Positions 22,221-32,899 of a DNA stretch of 33,469 nucleotides are shown piece by piece. Under the pieces are notes generated by a model. The model did no database searches. It saw nothing but the letters and a program-made list of their open reading frames with translations, and was not told the DNA's origin. A program made the translations under genes and the position numbers. Positions within the stretch are counted from its first letter, which is position 1. Each line of letters begins with the position of its first letter. Source of the stretch: Alphaproteobacteria bacterium (GTDB lineage: Bacteria > Pseudomonadota > Alphaproteobacteria > Puniceispirillales > Puniceispirillaceae); assembly GCA_009920665.1 (NCBI GenBank), contig RFZL01000025.1, positions 1 through 33,469 on the forward strand, read 5' to 3'.

Positions 22221-23676
22221 ATGCTGGAAAATTTCCTCGCCGGAACCGGCGCGCTCTTTGGCGATCCCTTCACCATCGCGATCTTTGTTTTCGGTGTCGT
22301 TGGCGGCATGCTGTTCGGTGCCATCCCCGGCGTCAGCATGCTGACCCTTGCGGCGATCCTGCTTCCCTTCACCGCCGATCTGGAACCGGCGCAAGGGGTG
22401 ATGCTGTTCGCCGTCATCTACTGTACCGGCACCTATGGCGGTGCCATCACGGCGATCCTGTTCAACATACCGGGCGCGCCGGAAAACGCACCGACCGCTT
22501 TTGACGGCTACCCGATGACCCGCAAGGGCCAGTCCGGCAAGGCCGTTGGCGCGGCGGTGCTGTGTTCGGCCATCGGCGGTGTCGCATCGGCGCTGGTGAT
22601 GATGGCCGCGACCGAACCGCTGGCCAACTGGGCGATCCGCAATATTGGGCCACCGGAAATCTTCGCGCTGGTGTTCTTTGGACTGGCCGTTGCCTCGTCG
22701 GTTGGCGGGCGGACCATCTGGAAGGGCTGGATGTCGGTGCTTCTCGGTCTGCTGATCGCGACAATCGGCCAGGACCCGGTCGGCGGCATCAACCGCTATA
22801 ATTTCGGCTTCACCGACCTTGCCGCCGGCATCGCTTTCGTCCCGGCGATCCTCGGTTTCTTCGCCGTGTCGGAAATTTTCGTGCAGGCCGAGAAGAAGGC
22901 CACCGGCCAGTTCGATGCGCCAAAGGTCGGCATGTCCTTCCCCACGGTCCTTGAGCTGTGGATGCATAAATTCGCCGTGCCTTCCCGGCATCGGCGCCAC
23001 GCTCGCGGCCTTCATGGGCTATGGCGAGGCGGTGCGCTGGTCGAAGAACAAGGAAGAGTTCGGCAAGGGCAAGCTTGAAGGCGTGATCTCGTCCGAGACA
23101 GCCAACAACGCCGCCACCGGCGCGGCGATGATCCCGCTGCTGGCGCTCGGCCTTCCCGGTGGTGCGCTGACCGCGATGATGGTGGCCGTATTCCAGATGC
23201 ATGACCTTGAACCCGGACCGCTTGTCTTCTACAACTCGCCCGACCTGATCTGGATTGTTTTCGCGGCGATGTTCTACGCCAACCTGTCAATCCTGTTTAT
23301 CGGGCTGATCGAAACCAAGACAATCCTCTATCTGCTGAAGATTCCGTTCCAGTTCCTGGCACCACTGATCCTGCTTCTTGCCACCATCGGCGCCTATATC
23401 AGCCGCGGTTTGGTACTGGACGTGATGGTGATGTTCGGAGCCGGCATTCTGGGCTTCCTGCTGCGTCGGACCGGATATTCGATACCGGGCATTGTGCTTG
23501 GCCTGATCCTCGGCAAGATCGGCGAGCAGAATTTCGCCCAGGGCATGCAGATGGTGCATTATGATCTCGGCACCTATTTTTCGCGGCCGATCTGCTCTAT
23601 CCTGATCGCCGCCGGTGCATTGACACTGGCCGCCGGCGTGTATAGAGCGTTCGCATCATCCTCGCACAAAGCCTAA
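22221..23676 (+). pseudogene. tctA: TTT transporter large membrane subunit TctA, interrupted by an internal deletion/frameshift near 22982
   Basis: Two frames together make one TctA of roughly 485 codons; intact family members have about 500. The first part (ATG 22221) is normal: GGMLFGAIPGVSMLTLAAIL near 28-47, YGGAITAILFNIPGAPENAPT near 75-94, then WMHKFAV at about 22962-22982. The frame then turns into nonsense and ends at 23078. The second part resumes one frame over at LPGIGATLAAFMGYGEAVRW and runs through ETANNAATGAAMIPLLALGL to TAG at 23676 region. Family members have about 12 more residues (of the type RSSxIGxxxGA) between these points, so the break looks like a loss of some 35-40 bases that is not a multiple of three. 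Without repair the transporter would be dead. A sequencing or assembly deletion is quite possible because all neighbours are intact. Confidence 0.8.
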
Positions 23677-23704: not shown

Positions 23705-25120
23705 GTGTCAGACGACATTGCCAAGACAGACGATACTGTAGACGAACTCGTCGCCCGTGCCCGCGAGGCGCAGAGCGCCTATGAGGCGATGGGATCGCAG
23801 GAATTGTTCGACCGCGCATGTCAGGCTGTGGCCTGGTGCCTGATGGAACCGGACCGGAACCGGCGCCTTGCCGAATTCGCCGTCGCCGAGACCGGCCTTG
23901 GCAATGCCGATGACAAGGTACGAAAGAACCACAACAAGACACTCGGCCTGATGCGTGACATCAAGGGTGTCACCGCTTTTGGCCATATCGAGGATGACGC
24001 GGGGCTGGGCCTGTCGACCTTCCTGCGGCCAAAAGGCGTTGTCGCCGCCATCGTGCCGTCGACGAACCCGCTCGCAACACCGGTCAACAATATGATCAAC
24101 GCTTTGAAGACAGGCAATGCGATCATCCTCGCCCCCTCGCCAAAGGGTGTGAAGCCGCTGCTGGCCCTGCTTGAGCATATCCATCCGGCGCTGGCCGCGC
24201 TTGGGTTGCCGGACGGGCTTGTGCAGATGGTGCCGGTACCGCCGTCGAAGCCGAAAACCCAGCGCCTGATGCAGCTTGCCGACATGGTGCTTGTCACCGG
24301 ATCGCAGGCGAATGTGCGGGCCGGCTATTCATCGGGAACACCGGCCATCGGTGTCGGGGCCGGCAATGTGGTAACCATTGTTGACGAAACCGCCGACATT
24401 GCCGCAGCGGCGGCGAAAATCGCCGCGTCCAAGACCTTTGACAACGCCACCTCCTGTTCCTCGGAAAATGCGGTGATTGCTGTTGATGCGGTCCATGACG
24501 AGCTTGTCGCGGCGCTGGCGGCCGAGGGCGGCTATCTTCTCGACGACGCGCAGACCGCCAGCCTTGAGGCCATGCACTGGCATCATGGCAAGCTGGCACC
24601 GCGCCTTCTGGCCAAGGATATAGATATCGTGCTGGCCGAGACCGGCCTTGCCGACAGCGCGCCGCCCGGCACCCGCTTCCTTGTCGCGCCGCAAACGCAG
24701 ATTGGTTCTGATCACCCGATGACCGGCGAGAAAATGGCGCTGTTCCTGGCGCTGCACCGCGCCAGTGATTTCGACGAGGCCCTGCATAAGGCCATCGCCA
24801 TCCAGAATGTCATGGGTGCCGGCCATTCGCTTGGCCTGCATTCTGGTGATGACGCGCGCGCGCGTCGGCTCGCCATGGAGGCGCGCACCTGCCGGGTGAT
24901 CGTCAATCAGGCGCATTGTTTCGCCAATGGCGGTTTCTTCAATAATGGCATGCCCTTCTCGCTGTCGATGGGATGTGGCAGCTGGGGCGGCAATTCGATC
25001 GATGAGAACCTGAACTGGCGCCATTTCGTGAATCAGGTTCGCATCGTGCGGACAATACCCGAACGCAAGCCTTCGCTTGACGAGATTTTCGGCGATTATT
25101 GGGAAGATCACGGCAAATGA
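23705..25120 (+). CDS. sauS: Sulfoacetaldehyde dehydrogenase (CoA-acylating)
   Basis: The 471-residue product is a CoA-acylating aldehyde dehydrogenase: PSTNPLATPVNNMINALKTGN (about 118-138) shapes the cofactor site, NATSCSSENAV places the catalytic Cys251, and GCGSWGGNSIDENLNWRHFVN is the family C-terminus. It would reduce sulfoacetyl-CoA to sulfoacetaldehyde with NAD(P)H and release CoA. The sulfonate assignment rests on the CSSEN motif context resembling SauS and on immediate coupling to a sulfoacetate-CoA ligase-like gene (ATGA overlap) downstream of a transporter. EutE/PduP-type acetaldehyde or propionaldehyde dehydrogenases are the alternative, but there is no microcompartment or alcohol dehydrogenase gene here. 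The GTG start at 23705 follows GGAAAGGA. Product is then expected to go to Xsc, which is absent from the window. Confidence 0.78.
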   Translation: MSDDIAKTDDTVDELVARAREAQSAYEAMGSQELFDRACQAVAWCLMEPDRNRRLAEFAVAETGLGNADDKVRKNHNKTLGLMRDIKGVTAFGHIEDDAGLGLSTFLRPKGVVAAIVPSTNPLATPVNNMINALKTGNAIILAPSPKGVKPLLALLEHIHPALAALGLPDGLVQMVPVPPSKPKTQRLMQLADMVLVTGSQANVRAGYSSGTPAIGVGAGNVVTIVDETADIAAAAAKIAASKTFDNATSCSSENAVIAVDAVHDELVAALAAEGGYLLDDAQTASLEAMHWHHGKLAPRLLAKDIDIVLAETGLADSAPPGTRFLVAPQTQIGSDHPMTGEKMALFLALHRASDFDEALHKAIAIQNVMGAGHSLGLHSGDDARARRLAMEARTCRVIVNQAHCFANGGFFNNGMPFSLSMGCGSWGGNSIDENLNWRHFVNQVRIVRTIPERKPSLDEIFGDYWEDHGK

Positions 25121-26637
25121 CACCGAGCATCATCGCGCAGCTTGACGCCAATGCCGCGGCTGACGGTGATGCGGCATGGCTGATCTCGCCTGATACGGGC
25201 GACAGCGTCACCTGGTCGGAGGCGGCCGCATGGTCGCGCGACATTGCCTGCCGGCTCGATGCGATGGGACTTGCCGAGGGCGCGCCCGTCGCCGTCGCCG
25301 CGCAGAATGCGATCTGGTCGACGCTGTGCTTCACCGGCATCACCACCGGCGGCTATCTGGCGACGCCGCTGAACCTTGTCGCCGGCGCACGGGTGATGTC
25401 CTATGTGATCGAGCATTCCGGGGTCGAGGTGATCCTGTGTACCGATGATCACCGCCAGCTGATTGACGAGGCGCTGGCGGACACCGACCGCCAGGTGACG
25501 ATCATCAGACTCGACCCCGACAACGGGCCGGAATGGCCCGACGGACCGGCACCGGCGCAGACACCGCGTGCAACGCCGGACGCCGGGACTGCCGGCCTGC
25601 TGATGTATACTTCGGGGACGACCGGCAACCCGAAGGGTGTCGTTCTCAGCCACGCCAATCTGATGGCCGCCGGCATGAATGTTGTGGAGGGCCACGGCGT
25701 TCGCCCAGACGACACGGCGATGTGCGTTCTGCCGATTTATCACATTAACGGGCTATGCGTGACGGTGATGGGCACGCTGATGTCGGGCAGCGGCCTTGTG
25801 ATGCCGTACAAATTCTCGCAACGGGCCTTCTGGCAGCAGGTTCAAAACTGCGATGTCAGCTGGTTCAGCGCCGTGCCAACCCTGTTCGCCTATCTCCTGA
25901 ATGACGAGACGCCACCACAGATCAATCGCGACAGGCTGCGCTTCTCGCGCTCGGCCTCGGCTCCCCTGTCACCGGAAATCCACCGCCGTTTCGAGGATCG
26001 GTTCGGCATTCCGATCATCGAAACCATGGGCTTGACCGAAACCGGCGCGCAGATTCTGACCAACCCGATGCCGCCGGCCACCCGCAAGATCGGCTCGCCC
26101 GGCGTTGCTGTCGGCAATGAGATCATCATCGGTGATGACAGCCAGCAGGAAGTGGCACGCGGCGTTACCGGCGAGATTCTGGTGCGCGGCCCGAACGTCA
26201 TGCGCGGCTATCTTGGCCAGCCGGAAGAAACCGCCAAAACCATCACCCCCGAGGGATGGCTTCGCACCGGCGACCTCGGGCATATGGACGAGGACGGGTT
26301 TGTTTTTGTGACCGGTCGCATCAAGGAACTGATCATCAAGGGCGGCGAGAATATCGCCCCGCGCGAGGTCGACGAGGTGCTGCTGGAGCATGACACCATC
26401 CTCGAGGCGGCGGCCTTTGCTGTGCCATGCGATCAATATGGCCAGCGCGTCGAGGCCTGCATTCGCTACAAGCCCGGCAAGGCGGCTGACGAGGCGGTTT
26501 TGCTGGCGCATTGCATCGCCCGGCTTGGCAGGTTCAAGGCACCTGACCGCGTGCATGTCCTTGACGACCTGCCAAAGGGTCCGTCCGGCAAGGTCCAGCG
26601 GCTGAAACTCTATGGTCTGGTCTATGATAATGGCTGA
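25117..26637 (+). CDS. sauT: Acyl-CoA synthetase, probable sulfoacetate-CoA ligase
   Basis: The 506-residue product is an AMP-forming acyl-CoA synthetase: P-loop YTSGTTGNPKGVVLSH (164-179), LPIYHINGL, the ETMGLTETGAQI adenine site, GWLRTGDLGHMDEDGFVF hinge and the C-terminal Lys492 in GPSGKVQR. It activates a carboxylate with ATP and CoA. Being translationally fused to the acylating dehydrogenase, it most likely makes sulfoacetyl-CoA, as SauT does. The acid cannot be proved from sequence, and other short acids are possible. The ATG at 25117 overlaps the sauS stop (ATGA); the frame upstream to 25099 is part of sauS. The next gene begins 15 bases later. Confidence 0.76.
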   Translation: MTPSIIAQLDANAAADGDAAWLISPDTGDSVTWSEAAAWSRDIACRLDAMGLAEGAPVAVAAQNAIWSTLCFTGITTGGYLATPLNLVAGARVMSYVIEHSGVEVILCTDDHRQLIDEALADTDRQVTIIRLDPDNGPEWPDGPAPAQTPRATPDAGTAGLLMYTSGTTGNPKGVVLSHANLMAAGMNVVEGHGVRPDDTAMCVLPIYHINGLCVTVMGTLMSGSGLVMPYKFSQRAFWQQVQNCDVSWFSAVPTLFAYLLNDETPPQINRDRLRFSRSASAPLSPEIHRRFEDRFGIPIIETMGLTETGAQILTNPMPPATRKIGSPGVAVGNEIIIGDDSQQEVARGVTGEILVRGPNVMRGYLGQPEETAKTITPEGWLRTGDLGHMDEDGFVFVTGRIKELIIKGGENIAPREVDEVLLEHDTILEAAAFAVPCDQYGQRVEACIRYKPGKAADEAVLLAHCIARLGRFKAPDRVHVLDDLPKGPSGKVQRLKLYGLVYDNG

Positions 26638-26652
26638 TGCGAGACTGGACGG

Positions 26653-27423
26653 GTGAACGCACTGTCCCTTCAGGCCCTTTTGCCAAGCCTCGACCCGCTT
26701 CTGATTGCCAGCATCTGCGGCATCTTCATATTTGCCGGGATCGTCAAGGGGTTCCTCGGCATCGGGCTTCCCGCCGCCGCCATGGGGCTCCTGACGTTGA
26801 TCTTTCCGCCGACCGAGGCGATATCGCTGCTGTGGCTGCCGATTCTGTTCAGTAACATGTTCCAGTTTGGTCGCGCACGGAACAAACGCGAGATCGCCGT
26901 CACCTATAAATGGTTCGCCGCCGCGATTTTCATCAGTATTTTCCTGACATCGCTGTTCATCAATGACTACCCGACCGCCCTGCTGACCGTCGCCATCGGG
27001 GTGGCGATGGTGGTGTTTTCCATGAATCTGCTATTCGGTCTGTCGTTGCCGGTTGGTCCGGGGCGCGGCTGGCAGGTCGGCGTCGGCATTGTGTCGGGTG
27101 TCCTTGGCGGCCTGTCCTCGATCTGGTCGCCGCCGGTGGCGATGTATCTGATGGCGCGCAACACACCGAAGGACATGTTCATCGGTGCCACCGGCTTTCT
27201 GTTCCTCGCCGGCTGCCTGCCACTCGGGGTCGGGCTCGTCATTTCCGGACTGATCACCGGGCCGGTCATCGTGAAATCGCTTCTTGGCCTGCTGATGACG
27301 CTGATTGGCTTCCGGATTGGTGAAATCCTGCGCGAACGTATCTCACAGGACAGGTTCCGCCAGGTGGTTCTGGTCGCCTTTCTGATCATGGGCGGGCGGC
27401 TTATCACCACCGGCCTTCTGTAA
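26653..27423 (+). CDS. tauE: TauE/SafE-family sulfite/organosulfonate exporter (TSUP permease)
   Basis: The 256-residue product has about eight membrane helices in two similar halves (for example IASICGIFIFAGIVKGFLGIG and VGIVSGVLGGLSSIWSPPVA), the layout of the TSUP/DUF81 family. In sulfonate degraders such proteins export sulfite formed by C-S bond cleavage, and that role fits its position at the end of the sau genes. The motif GxxKGFLGIGLP is the conserved first-repeat loop. GTG 26653 lies 15 bases after sauT, so it is in the same operon; no strong SD is visible. It converges on the orphan permease. Import of a substrate instead of export cannot be excluded. Confidence 0.82.
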   Translation: MNALSLQALLPSLDPLLIASICGIFIFAGIVKGFLGIGLPAAAMGLLTLIFPPTEAISLLWLPILFSNMFQFGRARNKREIAVTYKWFAAAIFISIFLTSLFINDYPTALLTVAIGVAMVVFSMNLLFGLSLPVGPGRGWQVGVGIVSGVLGGLSSIWSPPVAMYLMARNTPKDMFIGATGFLFLAGCLPLGVGLVISGLITGPVIVKSLLGLLMTLIGFRIGEILRERISQDRFRQVVLVAFLIMGGRLITTGLL

Positions 27424-27443: not shown

Positions 27444-28355
27444 TCAGCCCTTCCCGCGCCACGGGATCAACTGTCCAATCACCCAGCGCATGGCAAGGTC
27501 GAACAGCAATCCCAACAGCCCCATGATCAGGATTGTCACCCAGATCAGCTCATAATCGGACACCGTCCGTGCGACATTTTCGATAAAGCCGATACCGGTT
27601 GTGCCAGCCAGCATCTCGGCCGCGACAAGCGTTCCCCAGCAGACACCTATGGCGATCCGCACCCCGGTCAGTATTTCCGGCAACGCGTTGGGAAGAATGA
27701 CATGGCGCAGAATCTGTCCGTTCGTCGCGCCAAGTGAATGTGACGCGCGAATTTTTGACAGCTGCGTTCCCGAGGCACCGGTCCGAGCCGAAATCACCAT
27801 GATGGCGAAGGCGACCATGAACAGAAGGAAGATCTTGCCATCATCCTGAATGCCGAAAATCGTCAGGATCAGCGGTGCCCAGGCCAATGGCGGCACCGGC
27901 CGGTACAGCTCGATCATCGGGTCGAAGAAGGATTTGAAGAAACGCGAGACGCCCATATAGATGCCAAGCGGCACCCCAAGAAGAATGCCAAGCGACAGCG
28001 CCACAAGGACGCGGAACATCGAATCCCAGATATGCCCGTCAAGCATCGGCACCACGCCGAGATAGACATCCCCCTGCGCCACGGCCAGCAAATGGTCCTT
28101 GTAGGTTGGCCGGAAGCCGCCATCCGCGCCATGCAGGCCGTAACGCCCCGGCAACATGTCGACCAGCCCGTCAGCTATCAGGAAGTCGACCACCTTCGCC
28201 ACCGGCAGCCATTTCCACCACAACAGCGTCGTCCCCTTATAGCCGCCGCCGCCGGCAATATCCGGATTGGCGAGGGTCGAGAAGGTGGCCACAACGGCCG
28301 GAAAGATGACAGAAACGGGAAACCACAGGCATCGTAACCCAATCGAAGTTACCAA
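27444..28355 (-). CDS. ABC transporter permease, TauC/SsuC-like, without partner genes
   Basis: The 303-residue product matches inner-membrane permeases for taurine, sulfonate or nitrate: GVPLGIYMGVSRFFKSFFDP, ELYRPVPPLAWAPLIL and the EAA-type loop SHSLGATNGQILRHVILPNA, which contacts the ATPase. An N-terminal helix (CLWFPVSVIFPAVVATF) is followed by a long periplasmic stretch (about residues 30-100) not usual in short TauC proteins. The start is uncertain: the frame begins at TTG 28355 with no SD, and the N-terminus may be truncated. No binding protein or ATPase gene lies next to it, so it is either an orphan remnant or works with subunits encoded elsewhere. It ends tail-to-tail with tauE. 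Taurine specificity is not established. Confidence 0.75.
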   Translation of the reverse strand: MVTSIGLRCLWFPVSVIFPAVVATFSTLANPDIAGGGGYKGTTLLWWKWLPVAKVVDFLIADGLVDMLPGRYGLHGADGGFRPTYKDHLLAVAQGDVYLGVVPMLDGHIWDSMFRVLVALSLGILLGVPLGIYMGVSRFFKSFFDPMIELYRPVPPLAWAPLILTIFGIQDDGKIFLLFMVAFAIMVISARTGASGTQLSKIRASHSLGATNGQILRHVILPNALPEILTGVRIAIGVCWGTLVAAEMLAGTTGIGFIENVARTVSDYELIWVTILIMGLLGLLFDLAMRWVIGQLIPWRGKG

Positions 28356-28494: not shown

Positions 28495-28689
28495 ATGAAC
28501 AAGAGCTACCGTTTTCTGACCGGGCCTGACGATGCGGCCTTCTGCCAGAAAGTCAGCGATGCCCTTGCCGAGGGATATGAACTCTATGGCAATCCAATGA
28601 TGGTTGTCAGCAATGGCGAGCGCTATTGCGGCCAGGCTGTCATCATGCCGAACACGACAATCGGTGACGGGGACCGCGAGGATGACTGA
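28495..28689 (+). CDS. DUF1737 small protein, metZ-linked
   Basis: The 64-residue product from ATG 28495 (MNKSYRFLTGPDDAAFCQKV) contains the DUF1737 domain: YRFLTGPDDAAFC, ALAEGYELYGNPMMV and the GQAVIMP strand. Members are small, soluble and often carried beside methionine genes in alphaproteobacteria; function is unknown. It has no membrane segment. The stop overlaps the metZ start by eight bases, so the two are translationally coupled. The frame extends upstream to GTG 28423, but the family starts at the ATG used. No strong SD is visible before it (GGTGCGAAGA). Confidence 0.85.
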   Translation: MNKSYRFLTGPDDAAFCQKVSDALAEGYELYGNPMMVVSNGERYCGQAVIMPNTTIGDGDREDD

Positions 28690-29860
28690 CGAATATCGCC
28701 GCGACACCAAACTTGTCCGTGGCGGCCTTGCCCGTACGTCCTTTCAGGAGACCAGCGAGGCGCTGTTCCTGAATTCCGGCTATGTCTATGACAATGCCGA
28801 GGAAGCCGCCGCCGCCTTTGCCGGCGAGGCTGACCGCTATGTCTATTCGCGCTATGGCAACCCGACGGTGACCATGCTTCAGGACCGGCTTGCCGCGCTT
28901 GAGGGTGCCGAGGCCTGTCTTGCCACCGGCACCGGCATGGCCGGCGTGTTCGCGGCGCTGGCCTGCCAGCTCGACACCGGCGACCGGGTGGTGGCCAGCC
29001 GTGCCCTGTTCGGGGCCTGCTATGCCATCCTGCATGACATCCTGCCACGTTGGGGGATCACCACCGAGTTCGTCGACGGCACCGATCTGGATCAATGGCG
29101 CGCCGCCCTGTCCACCCCGGCCAAGGTGGTGTTTTTCGAATCCCCCTCCAACCCGATGCTTGACCTTGTCGATATCGAGGCAGTTGCCGAGATGGCGCAT
29201 GCGGCGGGCGCGACGGTCATTATCGACAATGTCTTCGCCACCCCGATCGCGCAGCATCCGTTGACGCTTGGCGCTGATATCGTGATCTATTCGGCAACCA
29301 AGCATATTGACGGCCAGGGACGTGTCCTTGGCGGCGCGGTTCTCGCCAGCGAGACCTTCATCAAGGAGCGGATGCTGAAATTCTACCGCCAGACCGGACC
29401 CTCGATCAGCCCGTTCAATGCATGGGTCCTGGTGAAATCACTGGAAACGCTGTCATTGCGGGTTGAGCGTCAGGCGGCAAGTGCCCTTGAACTGGCGCGC
29501 TGGCTGGAATCACGCACGGACATTGCCGATCTGCGCTATCCGGGGCTGGCAAGCCATCCGCAGCACGCCCTTGCAAAGCGCCAGATGTCGAATGGCGGCT
29601 CGCTTGTCGCCTTTACGCTTGCCAGCGGGACCGAATCCGCCTTCCGGGTGCTGAACAGCCTGCAGCTGATCGATATCTCGAACAATCTTGGCGATTCAAA
29701 GACCCTCGCCTGCCACCCCGGCTCGACAACCCACAGCAGCGTCAGCGCCGATGACCGTGCAGCGATGGGCATTGCCGACGGCAGCATCCGCCTGTCCATC
29801 GGGCTGGAGGATATGGAGGATCTGAAGACCGATCTTGACCGGGCGCTTGCCGCCATCTGA
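28682..29860 (+). CDS. metZ: O-succinylhomoserine sulfhydrylase
   Basis: The 392-residue product is a Cys/Met-metabolism PLP enzyme. Visible are RYGNPTVTMLQDRLAALEGAE (57-77), ATGTGMAGVFA, DNVFATP and the PLP-binding Lys207 in YSATKHIDGQGR. The KHIDGQGRVLGG stretch is typical of MetZ rather than MetB/MetC. It joins sulfide to O-succinylhomoserine to give homocysteine, the direct sulfhydrylation route to methionine. It overlaps the DUF1737 gene by eight bases; an upstream ATG at 28604 was rejected as it lies inside that gene. A link to the sulfonate genes (sulfite to sulfide to homocysteine) is plausible but only inference. Confidence 0.94.
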   Translation: MTDEYRRDTKLVRGGLARTSFQETSEALFLNSGYVYDNAEEAAAAFAGEADRYVYSRYGNPTVTMLQDRLAALEGAEACLATGTGMAGVFAALACQLDTGDRVVASRALFGACYAILHDILPRWGITTEFVDGTDLDQWRAALSTPAKVVFFESPSNPMLDLVDIEAVAEMAHAAGATVIIDNVFATPIAQHPLTLGADIVIYSATKHIDGQGRVLGGAVLASETFIKERMLKFYRQTGPSISPFNAWVLVKSLETLSLRVERQAASALELARWLESRTDIADLRYPGLASHPQHALAKRQMSNGGSLVAFTLASGTESAFRVLNSLQLIDISNNLGDSKTLACHPGSTTHSSVSADDRAAMGIADGSIRLSIGLEDMEDLKTDLDRALAAI

Positions 29861-30026: not shown

Positions 30027-31013
30027 GTGACCTCAATCGTGATTACCGGGGCCAACGGCTTTATCGGACGGCTGCTGGCCGCGCGGCTGACCGTCGGCAC
30101 GCAGATCATGATTGGCGGGCAGACACGGACTATCGGCACGCGGACCCTTGTCGACCGGTTCATTCCCGATGAGGCCGCCAATGATCCGGAATGGATCAGG
30201 GGTGATCTCGGCGCGCTGATCACCGACCGGCCGGAACTCTTCACTGGCGCGGATGTCGTTCTGCATCTTGCCAGCGCCGTCAGCGGCGAATGCGAGGCCG
30301 ATCTCGATCTGGGGCTGGACGCCAATCTGTTCACCGGCATCGCGCTTGGACGCTGCCTTGCCGCCACATCCCGCAAGCCGATGCTGGTCTTTGCAAGTTC
30401 GCTTGCCATCTATGGCGGCACTCCGGACCAGCCGCTTGCCGACTTGATCACCGACACCACCCGCCCGACGCCGCAGAACAGCTATGGCGCACAGAAACTG
30501 ATGCTGGAGGAATTCTACGCCGACCTCGCACGGCGCGGCATGATCTCGTCCCGCTCGGTCAGGCTGATGACGGTCAGCGTGCGCCCCGGCAAACCGAACG
30601 CCGCCGCCAGCAGTTTCCTGTCCGGCATGATTCGCGAGCCGCTGCAGGGCGAGCCTGCCAATGTGCCGGTCGATAAGGCGCTTCGTGTCTTGCTGAATTC
30701 GCCGACCGGCGCGGTTGGCGGGTTGATGCATGCCATGTCGGTCGCCGATGATGATTGGGGCGCGCCACTTGGTCTGAACCTGCCCGGCATTTCGGTGATG
30801 GTCGGCGAGATGGTCGAGGCGCTTCGCGAGGTAGGCGGTGAAGAGGCTGTTTCAAGACTGACTTTTGACCGCGACGAGGCGATTGAACGCATCGTGTCGG
30901 GATGGCCCACCGCGGCGCAGAGCACACGCGCCGCACGTCTCGGCTTTGCCGCCGACAGGCCCTTCATCGCCGCTGTTCGCGATTTTGCCGCATCGCTTGA
31001 CCGCATTGCTTGA
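30027..31013 (+). CDS. NAD-dependent epimerase/dehydratase, D-erythronate dehydrogenase (DenD)-like
   Basis: The 328-residue product is an extended [12 protein letters not shown] (7-15) binds [13 protein letters not shown] and [11 protein letters not shown] give the Ser, Tyr and Lys of the catalytic site. [38 protein letters not shown] and the [16 protein letters not shown] stretch are like DenD (D-erythronate dehydrogenase) proteins, which oxidise the C2 hydroxyl of four-carbon sugar acids. The GTG start at 30027 follows a GGAG site. It lies 14 bases before cuyA. Its presence beside a cysteate lyase and a beta-hydroxyacid dehydrogenase is unusual; the true substrate could be a sugar acid or another hydroxy acid. 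Confidence 0.75.
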
Positions 31014-31027
31014 AAGGAATTGATATC

Positions 31028-32062
31028 ATGCATCTGGCACGTTTCCCCCGTATCTCGCTGGCGCATCTGCCAACCCCGATCGAGCCGCTGCCGCGGCTGT
31101 CCGCGGCGCTTGGCGGTCCGGAAATCTGGATCAAGCGCGATGACTGCACCGGCCTGTCGACCGGCGGCAACAAGACCCGCAAGCTGGAATTCCTGATGGC
31201 CGAGGCGCTTGCCGAGGGCGCAGACATGGTGATGACACAGGGCGCCACGCAATCGAATCATGCCCGGCAGACCGCCGCCGCGGCGGCGCGGCTGGGGCTA
31301 GGCTGCCATATTCTGCTTGAGGACAGGACCGGTTCGAAGGCGCATAACTACAACCATAATGGCAATGTGCTTCTCGACCATCTTCATGGTGCGACAACCG
31401 AGATGTGCCCCTCCGGCGGCGACATGAACGCGGTGATGGAAAAGGTGGCCGCCGAACGCCGCAAGACCGGCGCCAGCGTCTATACGATCCCCGGCGGCGG
31501 GTCGAACCCGACCGGCGCGCTCGGCTATGTCAATGCGGCGCTGGAAATGCTGGGGCAGGTGAACGAGGCCGGGCTGGCCATCGACCATATTGTCCACGCC
31601 ACTGGCAGCGCCGGCACGCAGGCCGGGCTTGCGACCGGCCTTGCCGCGATGAATGCCAATATCCCGCTGCTGGGGATCGGCGTGCGCGCGCCGCAGGCAA
31701 AGCAGGAGGAAAATGTCTTTGCGCTGGCCGCAGCAACGGCGGAAAAGCTTGGCTGCCCGGGCGCGGTGACGCGCGGTGATGTTGTCGCCAACTGCGATTA
31801 TGTCGGCGACGGCTATGGCATCCCGACCCCGGGCTGCCTTGAGGCGATCGCGCTGTTCGCCGAATGCGAGGGCATCCTGCTGGACCCGGTCTATTCAGCC
31901 AAGGCCGCCGCCGGCCTGATCGACATGATCAGGGGCGGCGATTTCACCGCCGGGCAGCGCGTGATGTTCCTGCATACCGGCGGGGCGGCGGCATTGTTCG
32001 GCTATGACGGCGCTTTCGACATGACCGGCAAGTGGACCGGCAGCACGGCAGAGGCTGCCTGA
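31028..32062 (+). CDS. cuyA: L-cysteate sulfo-lyase (D-cysteine desulfhydrase/ACC deaminase fold)
   Basis: The 344-residue product is a fold-type II PLP enzyme. [13 protein letters not shown] (44-56) contains the PLP lysine Lys49; [33 protein letters not shown] and [16 protein letters not shown] bind the phosphate and carboxylate. The start [20 protein letters not shown] and the [11 protein letters not shown] segment are like CuyA from marine alphaproteobacteria. CuyA breaks L-cysteate into pyruvate, ammonia and sulfite; relatives act on D-cysteine or ACC, which are the main alternatives. ATG 31028 has AAAGGA about 10 bases upstream. Sulfite from this reaction could leave through TauE, located 4 kb away. 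Confidence 0.82.
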
Positions 32063-32103
32063 TCCGCAGCATCCTAAACCGCGACTGGCAGGAGGATACC
32101 GCC

Positions 32104-32899
32104 ATGAAGATCGGATTTGTCGGGCTTGGCCAGATGGGGCTGGTCATGGCCCCTCACCTGATGCGCGATGGCTGGCAGGTGACCGGCCACGACCTTGTGG
32201 TGCCGACTGACCTGCCGGACAGGCTGGATTTCAGCGCCGGTCTTAACGATCTTGCCACCAGCGATGTCATCATCACCATGCTGCCGGATGGCGAGGTGGT
32301 GACGGAGGTGGTCGACCGGCTGCTTGGCGCCGGATGCCGGGCGCTGTTCATCGACATGTCGTCCGCGCACCCCGATGACAGCCGCGCGCTGGCGCACCGT
32401 CTTTCAGAGCTGGGGCTTGAATTTGTCGATGCGCCTGTTTCGGGCGGCGTGGCGCGCGCGCGGGCCGGCGAGCTGACGATCATGGCCGGCGGCGACGAGG
32501 CTGCTTTCACGAGGGCGCTGCCAGTGCTGTCCTGCATGGGACATGCCGTCCATCTCGGCCCGCCGGGATGCGGCCATGCGATGAAGGCGCTGAACAACTA
32601 TGTGTCGGCCGCCGGCCTGATCGCCAGCTTTCAGGCATTGGCGACGGCCATCGACAGCGGCATCGCGCCAGCGCGGTTTCTGGAAGTGATCAACGGCTCC
32701 ACCGGCAGCAACAACACCACCCGGGTGAAGATCGACAAATTCGTCCTGACCGAGAATTTTGATTCCGGATTCGCGCTGGCGCTGATGGAAAAGGATGTGT
32801 CGATCGCTGCCGCGCTGCGACGGGCTGGCCGCACTTGGTGACGGCGCCGACCATACCGAGATGTACCGCGCCGTGACCGGCGATCTGCCTGAAACATGA
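32104..32899 (+). pseudogene. Beta-hydroxyacid dehydrogenase (GarR/LtnD/HIBADH family), interrupted near 32820
   Basis: The normal part from ATG 32104 (SD GGAGG) has GFVGLGQMG (NAD site), DAPVSGGVARARAGELTIM (the carboxylate-binding DxPVSGG signature) and HAMKALNNY with the catalytic Lys. After MEKDVSIAAALR the frame becomes RAGRTW and stops at 32839. One frame over, LAALGDGADHTEMYRAVTGD continues to TGA 32897-32899, which is the usual C-terminus of this family. The linking helices (some 30 residues in relatives) are missing, so about 90-105 bases that are not a multiple of three appear lost. The substrate of the ancestral enzyme was probably a 3-hydroxy acid. The Arg that recognises sulfonate in YihU-type reductases is not present at the SGG position. 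Confidence 0.78.

Follow-up and report, generated by a model that had tools for sequence, protein, structure and literature searches.

Cysteate, DHPS, and sulfolactate are exchanged between phytoplankton and marine bacteria. A 2024 report (PMC11382572) names D-cysteate as the preferred substrate of CuyA and CuyB as a racemase, and describes the aminotransferase and racemase genes that supply CuyA in Ruegeria pomeroyi as unknown. Here, we studied a CuyA locus in a window of 33,469 nucleotides (the whole stretch of DNA analyzed) from a draft genome, G000 (2.69 Mb, 99.15% complete), whose genus we infer to be SAR116 (Puniceispirillales); G-labels denote genomes and L-labels the loci compared with it. 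This locus is a genus-restricted variant of the CuyA locus, in which CuyA is ordinary and its DenD-like partner is unusual. We tentatively interpret it as a genus-level sulfonate-catabolism operon that would couple D-cysteate cleavage to the oxidation of a small 2-hydroxyacid, either sulfonated or a C4 sugar acid, a reading that we rate as falling slightly short of probable. A dehydrogenase in place of CuyB beside CuyA would suggest a different way of supplying the enzyme in a widespread marine order. The main text of a 2025 study of SAR116 (PMC12262181) makes no mention of taurine, xsc, cuyA, or DHPS.

The locus comprises a DenD-like SDR, CuyA, and a GarR-like dehydrogenase (Table 1). CuyA had been described in the first-pass annotation as closely flanked by the two dehydrogenases, at 14 and 41 bases; both gaps were confirmed, with all three genes on the plus strand and, by eye, Shine-Dalgarno-like stretches before all three starts. 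The same annotation had placed the trio at positions 30027 to 32899. The three genes are indeed present, but the GarR-like frame, starting at the ATG at 32104, ends at 32841, and 32899 is the end of another frame. This is because of a 56-base deletion: compared with G117, G119, and G120 (the three relatives compared), 56 bases are missing near position 32815, leaving the tail out of frame, and the STGR of these relatives reads STGS in the window. Neither promoters (2 predicted compared to 1.3 ± 1.2 in shuffled sequences) nor terminators (4 compared to 3.0 ± 1.7) gave a signal in the window, and an Rfam scan of it returned no match.

Table 1. Genes of the CuyA locus and its sulfonate-related surroundings in the window
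Feature	Position	Strand	Evidence
SauS, acylating sulfoacetaldehyde dehydrogenase	23705..25120	+	NF047625, 632 bits (cut-off 600)
AMP-dependent CoA ligase beside SauS	25099..26637	+	PF00501/PF13193
TauE/SafE-like exporter	26653..27423	+	PF01925
TauC-type permease, C-terminal remnant	27444..28355	-	PF00528; rest of TauC, TauB, and TauA missing
MetZ, O-succinylhomoserine sulfhydrylase	28682..29860	+	TIGR01325, 566.6 bits (cut-off 510.05)
DenD-like extended SDR (NAD-binding), divergent from D-erythronate dehydrogenase	30027..31013	+	NF043036, 294.7 bits (cut-off 325); SDR triad conserved
CuyA, D-cysteate sulfo-lyase family (PLP enzyme)	31028..32062	+	NF052482, 535.1 bits (cut-off 450)
GarR/HIBADH-like beta-hydroxyacid dehydrogenase, frame broken near 32815	32104..32841	+	PF03446 and PF14833
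Out-of-frame tail of the GarR-like gene	32816..32899	+	matches relatives' C-termini in another frame

The sequence evidence that the central gene encodes a member of the D-cysteate sulfo-lyase family is strong. The protein passes the curated equivalog model NF052482 (Table 1), and in a quick tree it sits within an 83-row clade (support, 100) together with Roseobacter and other CuyA loci and apart from a 38 to 40% identical paralogue, the six genus rows of its type forming one clade. Its homologue on the megaplasmid of R. pomeroyi DSS-3 is 78% identical. By family, this PLP enzyme would convert D-cysteate to pyruvate, ammonia, and sulfite. Loci of the SAR116 family also contain a second CuyA-type gene (e.g., L026, L240, and L241), 53 to 56% identical and with varying surroundings. 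Two representatives of this second type, L024 and L026, exceed the NF052482 cut-off with about 481 bits; neighbors change across the nine stretches compared by eye, and flanks of up to 1.5 kb in L008 to L031 gave no DenD match and a single GarR-type match (30%, L019).

Within the genus, DenD of the window's subfamily and CuyA of the window's type each occur in 7 of 12 genomes. DenD lies directly upstream of CuyA on the same strand in six of the seven genomes with DenD, with gaps of 14, 4, 4, 4, 4, and 15 bases in G000, G117, G119, G120, G111, and G118, respectively, and the two genes are adjacent in all six genomes in which the stretch upstream of a window-type CuyA is assembled. The pair is kept in both genus subclades, the 4-base gap occurring in both, across which the DenD proteins are 62 to 69% identical; the flanking genes are rearranged between genomes. 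Pairwise dN/dS ranges from 0.13 to 0.26 for DenD, from 0.07 to 0.18 for CuyA, and from 0.14 to 0.33 for the intact part of the GarR-like gene, with dS approaching or exceeding 1 in distant pairs. In G115, pieces of CuyA reach the contig ends, the GarR-like gene follows one of them, and there is no DenD match. In G121, DenD has no adjacent CuyA and is still under purifying selection, which argues against the operon reading; elsewhere, this genome holds the other CuyA-type gene (NF052482, 480.8 bits; cut-off 450). Co-occurrence inside the genus thus reveals a conserved DenD-CuyA linkage, and this kept pair suggests that DenD and CuyA work together. For the GarR-like gene, which the first-pass annotation had counted in the same cluster, linkage is partial: it directly follows CuyA in G000, G117, G119, G120, and G115, but it is broken in the first of these and lies away from CuyA in G111 and G118.

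The genes around DenD-CuyA concern sulfonates. The operon reading is supported by SauS, TauE, and Tau-type genes alongside the pair (Table 1) and by ComD (149.9 bits; cut-off, 147.95), ComE (238.3; 221.5), and Xsc (941.2; 676.4) elsewhere in G000. The AMP-dependent CoA ligase scores below the cut-offs of 25 NCBIfam models among the matches listed (106 matched) and is, by position alone, probably a sulfoacetate ligase. At positions 28296 to 28299, the window has a junction at which about 3.1 kb of G119—most of TauC, TauB, and TauA—is absent; TauA was found in 5 of the 12 genus genomes and not in G000. MetZ ends 166 bases before DenD, had no match beside DenD-CuyA in L006, L007, and L075 (G111 and G118), and is probably a separate unit. 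Elsewhere on the contig, a TctA transporter gene at 22221 to 23676 is broken into two frames (N-terminal half, 22221 to 23078; C-terminal half, 22819 to 23676), making a third lesion beside the GarR-like and Tau transporter deletions; these lesions may reflect either genuine losses or errors of assembly.

ComD and ComE lie beside a PF00815 gene, which we call HpsN-like because of these neighbors and because 16 CuyA loci (among the best 80 of 581 relatives) have a relative of it nearby. It scores as a histidinol dehydrogenase in NCBIfam (447.4 compared to 243.8), which counts against the operon reading. L224 (4835 to 12229; G000:C80) holds a DHPS-type cluster of an HpsN-like gene, an SDR, an alcohol dehydrogenase, ComD, ComE, and, by eye, a TRAP-type transporter; beside it, no sulfolactate dehydrogenase was recognized. 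G000 has three PF02615 matches, one of them a fragment; the other two score 241.2 and 175.1, short of the 500 required for an L-sulfolactate dehydrogenase. The gap in sulfolactate oxidation may be apparent only, as the search covered the PF02615 type and left out the SlcD type.

The DenD-like SDR falls under the D-erythronate dehydrogenase cut-off (NF043036; 325), as do the genus copies of G118 (306) and G121 (307.6). Two control DenDs, class homologues with OtnI or OtnK nearby, pass it at 466.3 and 433.4. S124, Y153, and K157, which we take to be the SDR triad, are conserved with the class homologues, and an RPGKPN-type motif shares R186, G188, P190, and N191 with them. All seven genus copies keep 63 of the 88 positions conserved among 29 class homologues and depart at 25, including M181 (proline in 29/29) and position 227, where T, A, or D stands for an arginine found in 28/29. 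Outside the genus, identity peaks at 44% for full-length matches and at 47% for partial ones (class sample, 385 genomes), and all 351 records of a plasmid search were below 60% identity. A predicted structure was set aside (four-row alignment; mean pLDDT, 50.5). In neither the DenD-like nor the GarR-like dehydrogenase was a sulfonate-binding feature identified, a point against the operon reading.

Since its catalytic residues are conserved, the DenD-like SDR, probably made from CuyA's transcript, would be expected to catalyze the NAD-dependent oxidation, at the C2 hydroxyl, of a small acid resembling erythronate in size and shape. As a first guess, its substrate may be a 2-hydroxysulfonate such as sulfolactate, presumably oxidized to sulfopyruvate, which could then be converted to cysteate by an aminotransferase encoded elsewhere or be taken by ComDE and Xsc. 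D-erythronate, a C4 sugar acid, is an almost equally likely substrate; we put the hydroxysulfonate slightly ahead because of the DenD-CuyA linkage and the sulfonate setting. The more specific proposal that a DenD-family SDR was recruited as a sulfolactate (2-hydroxysulfonate) dehydrogenase, feeding sulfopyruvate and cysteate to CuyA, strikes us as unlikely. If true, it would represent an entry to cysteate cleavage without a known CuyB and would fill the sulfolactate-oxidation step left unassigned in the SAR116 genus. The first-pass annotation had suggested that the cluster handles an additional three- or four-carbon acid or links cysteate to a hydroxysulfonate. Both ideas survive, and neither is established: the hydroxysulfonate link draws on the DenD-CuyA pairing, the surrounding sulfonate genes, the ComDE and Xsc route elsewhere in the genome, the low scores of the two PF02615 proteins tested, and the lack of a CuyB match, and the C4 sugar acid on the conserved DenD positions and on the sugar-acid genes that accompany DenD across the genus.

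These sugar-acid genes carry the best-surviving alternative, a serious contender that we nevertheless hold to be somewhat improbable: the DenD-like enzyme would belong to a C4 (or C5) sugar-acid route running from an aldose-dehydrogenase SDR through an SMP-30 lactonase and the DenD-like enzyme to OtnI/OtnK/OtnC, and CuyA would be a later-acquired neighbor sharing its transcript. An aldose-dehydrogenase-like SDR (307.8 bits, compared to a D-xylose dehydrogenase cut-off of 400) occurs in exactly those 7 of 12 genus genomes that have DenD; an SMP-30 lactonase adjoins it in 7/7 (by tblastn in five, read directly in G111 and G118), and the SDR/SMP-30 pair is near DenD in G111, G118, and G121. The C4-acid kinase OtnK is present in six of the seven DenD holders and in 8 of the 12 genomes overall, passes its cut-off in G117 (537.4; cut-off, 350), and is adjoined, by eye, by aldolase- and isomerase-like genes in G117 and G119. 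Moreover, OtnI or OtnK lies within 1.5 kb of 7 of the 29 class DenD homologues. The co-occurrence with the SDR/SMP-30 pair and OtnK and the 63 retained positions also count against the operon reading; however, the five DenD-less genomes are only 58 to 86% complete, so that the co-occurrence of DenD and the SDR may partly reflect phylogeny and completeness. Against the sugar-acid route stand the sub-threshold scores of the window, G118, and G121 DenDs next to the controls, the lack of an OtnK match in G000, and the location of the SDR pair on other contigs than DenD in G000, G117, G119, and G120. It also leaves unexplained why DenD and CuyA stay together. We found no literature joining erythronate with cysteate. 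The SMP-30/SDR pairs near DenD are divergently oriented (L113, 6632 to 9547; L114, 2089 to 4997; L186, 3194 to 5038; from G111, G118, and G121), and glyoxalase- and LysE-type genes lie between the pair and CuyA in G111 and G118.

To place the locus among other CuyA loci, we scanned genome contigs around the best 80 of 581 CuyA relatives, a selection that favors close kin and in which some flanks are short. DenD was near CuyA in three of these 80 loci and a GarR-like gene in two, all from the window's genus, and the DenD-CuyA pairing was absent from the other 77. In 30/80, a CuyB-like gene lay within 1.3 kb after CuyA in the same orientation; one such protein, checked against its model, passes (249 compared to 190). 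With one protein as the query, no CuyB match appeared in G000, and matches in 3 of the 12 genus genomes (drafts) reached no more than 24 to 26% identity, which, set against those 30 loci, favors the operon reading. Among the same 80, relatives of the R. pomeroyi exporter were near CuyA in 15 and TauA-like genes in 13 (two from the window's genus); ComD, ComE, and SauS were near it in none. L059 has the order Tau-type transporter, CuyA, DegT-type aminotransferase, Asp/Glu-type racemase, and HpsN-like gene, and a Tau-type binding protein alongside the genus DenD-CuyA shares 44% identity with one in L059 across 261 residues. The genes after CuyA in L059 and L083 encode an aminotransferase (assigned by Pfam to the DegT type in L059) and a racemase, the former being a candidate cysteate aminotransferase.

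The restriction of the pairing to one genus (3 of the best 80 loci) is also what one would expect if the neighborhood had no functional meaning, CuyA having entered the locus in the ancestor of the genus and the gene order having simply persisted; the GarR-like gene, next to CuyA in five genomes and elsewhere in two, fits this as well. We consider such an origin quite unlikely, as the DenD-CuyA gaps stay at 4 to 15 bases despite the rearranged flanks, and the operon reading gains from a pair kept in both subclades with a CuyA well inside its family. Least of all do we credit a reading in which CuyA functions as a D-cysteine desulfhydrase in a locus concerned with D-amino acids: that name is borne by the closest PDB entry in sequence (7ysk) and by most listed plasmid records, and the broad D-cysteine desulfhydrase subfamily model TIGR01275 is passed (333.2 compared to 289.4), but the three equivalog models for that enzyme are missed (317.4, 310.4, and 285.1 compared to 429, 610, and 469) where the equivalog NF052482 is passed, and the neighboring genes are sulfonate genes.

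In the operon reading, the GarR-like protein would be an accessory and dispensable beta-hydroxyacid dehydrogenase, accompanying CuyA in some genomes of the genus and broken in the window assembly. The broken copy is below the GarR, HIBADH, and LtnD cut-offs (146.2, 153.3, and 108.2 compared to 340.75, 291.6, and 350), as is the intact copy of G119 (146.4, 146.7, and 104.2). Identity with the sulfolactaldehyde reductase YihU was rejected (120.7 compared to 348; intact G119 copy, 111.3; SGG instead of GRT, presumably the sulfonate-binding motif of YihU). A role as CuyA partner outside the genus was rejected as well: among eight loci with 54 to 59% identical relatives, the five read (L190 to L193 and L199; L194, L195, and L202 were left out) have other neighbors, by eye GMC oxidoreductase, CaiB-type, or TPP-enzyme genes.

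Compared with described systems, the GarR-like protein shares a superfamily with YihU (3-sulfolactaldehyde reductase), GarR, HIBADH, and LtnD. It aligns with YihU at the NAD-binding motif and at a lysine that we take to be catalytic, but the intact L032 copy is only 31% identical to it and has SGG at the GRT position. With the D-erythronate pathway (DenD, OtnI, OtnK, and OtnC), the window shares the SDR family, the triad, and most of the conserved DenD positions; it differs in an SDR below the DenD cut-off, with no OtnI, OtnK, or OtnC near it within the window and no OtnK found in G000. On the megaplasmid of R. pomeroyi DSS-3, by contrast, CuyA is flanked by LysR and TRAP transporter genes and a putative sulfate exporter. 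The CuyA-CuyB loci have a CuyA of the same clade, in some cases with a TauA-like gene nearby, and some contain a DegT-type aminotransferase and an HpsN-like gene, whereas the window's CuyA, which adjoins neither of these nor CuyB, has a DenD-like SDR upstream instead.
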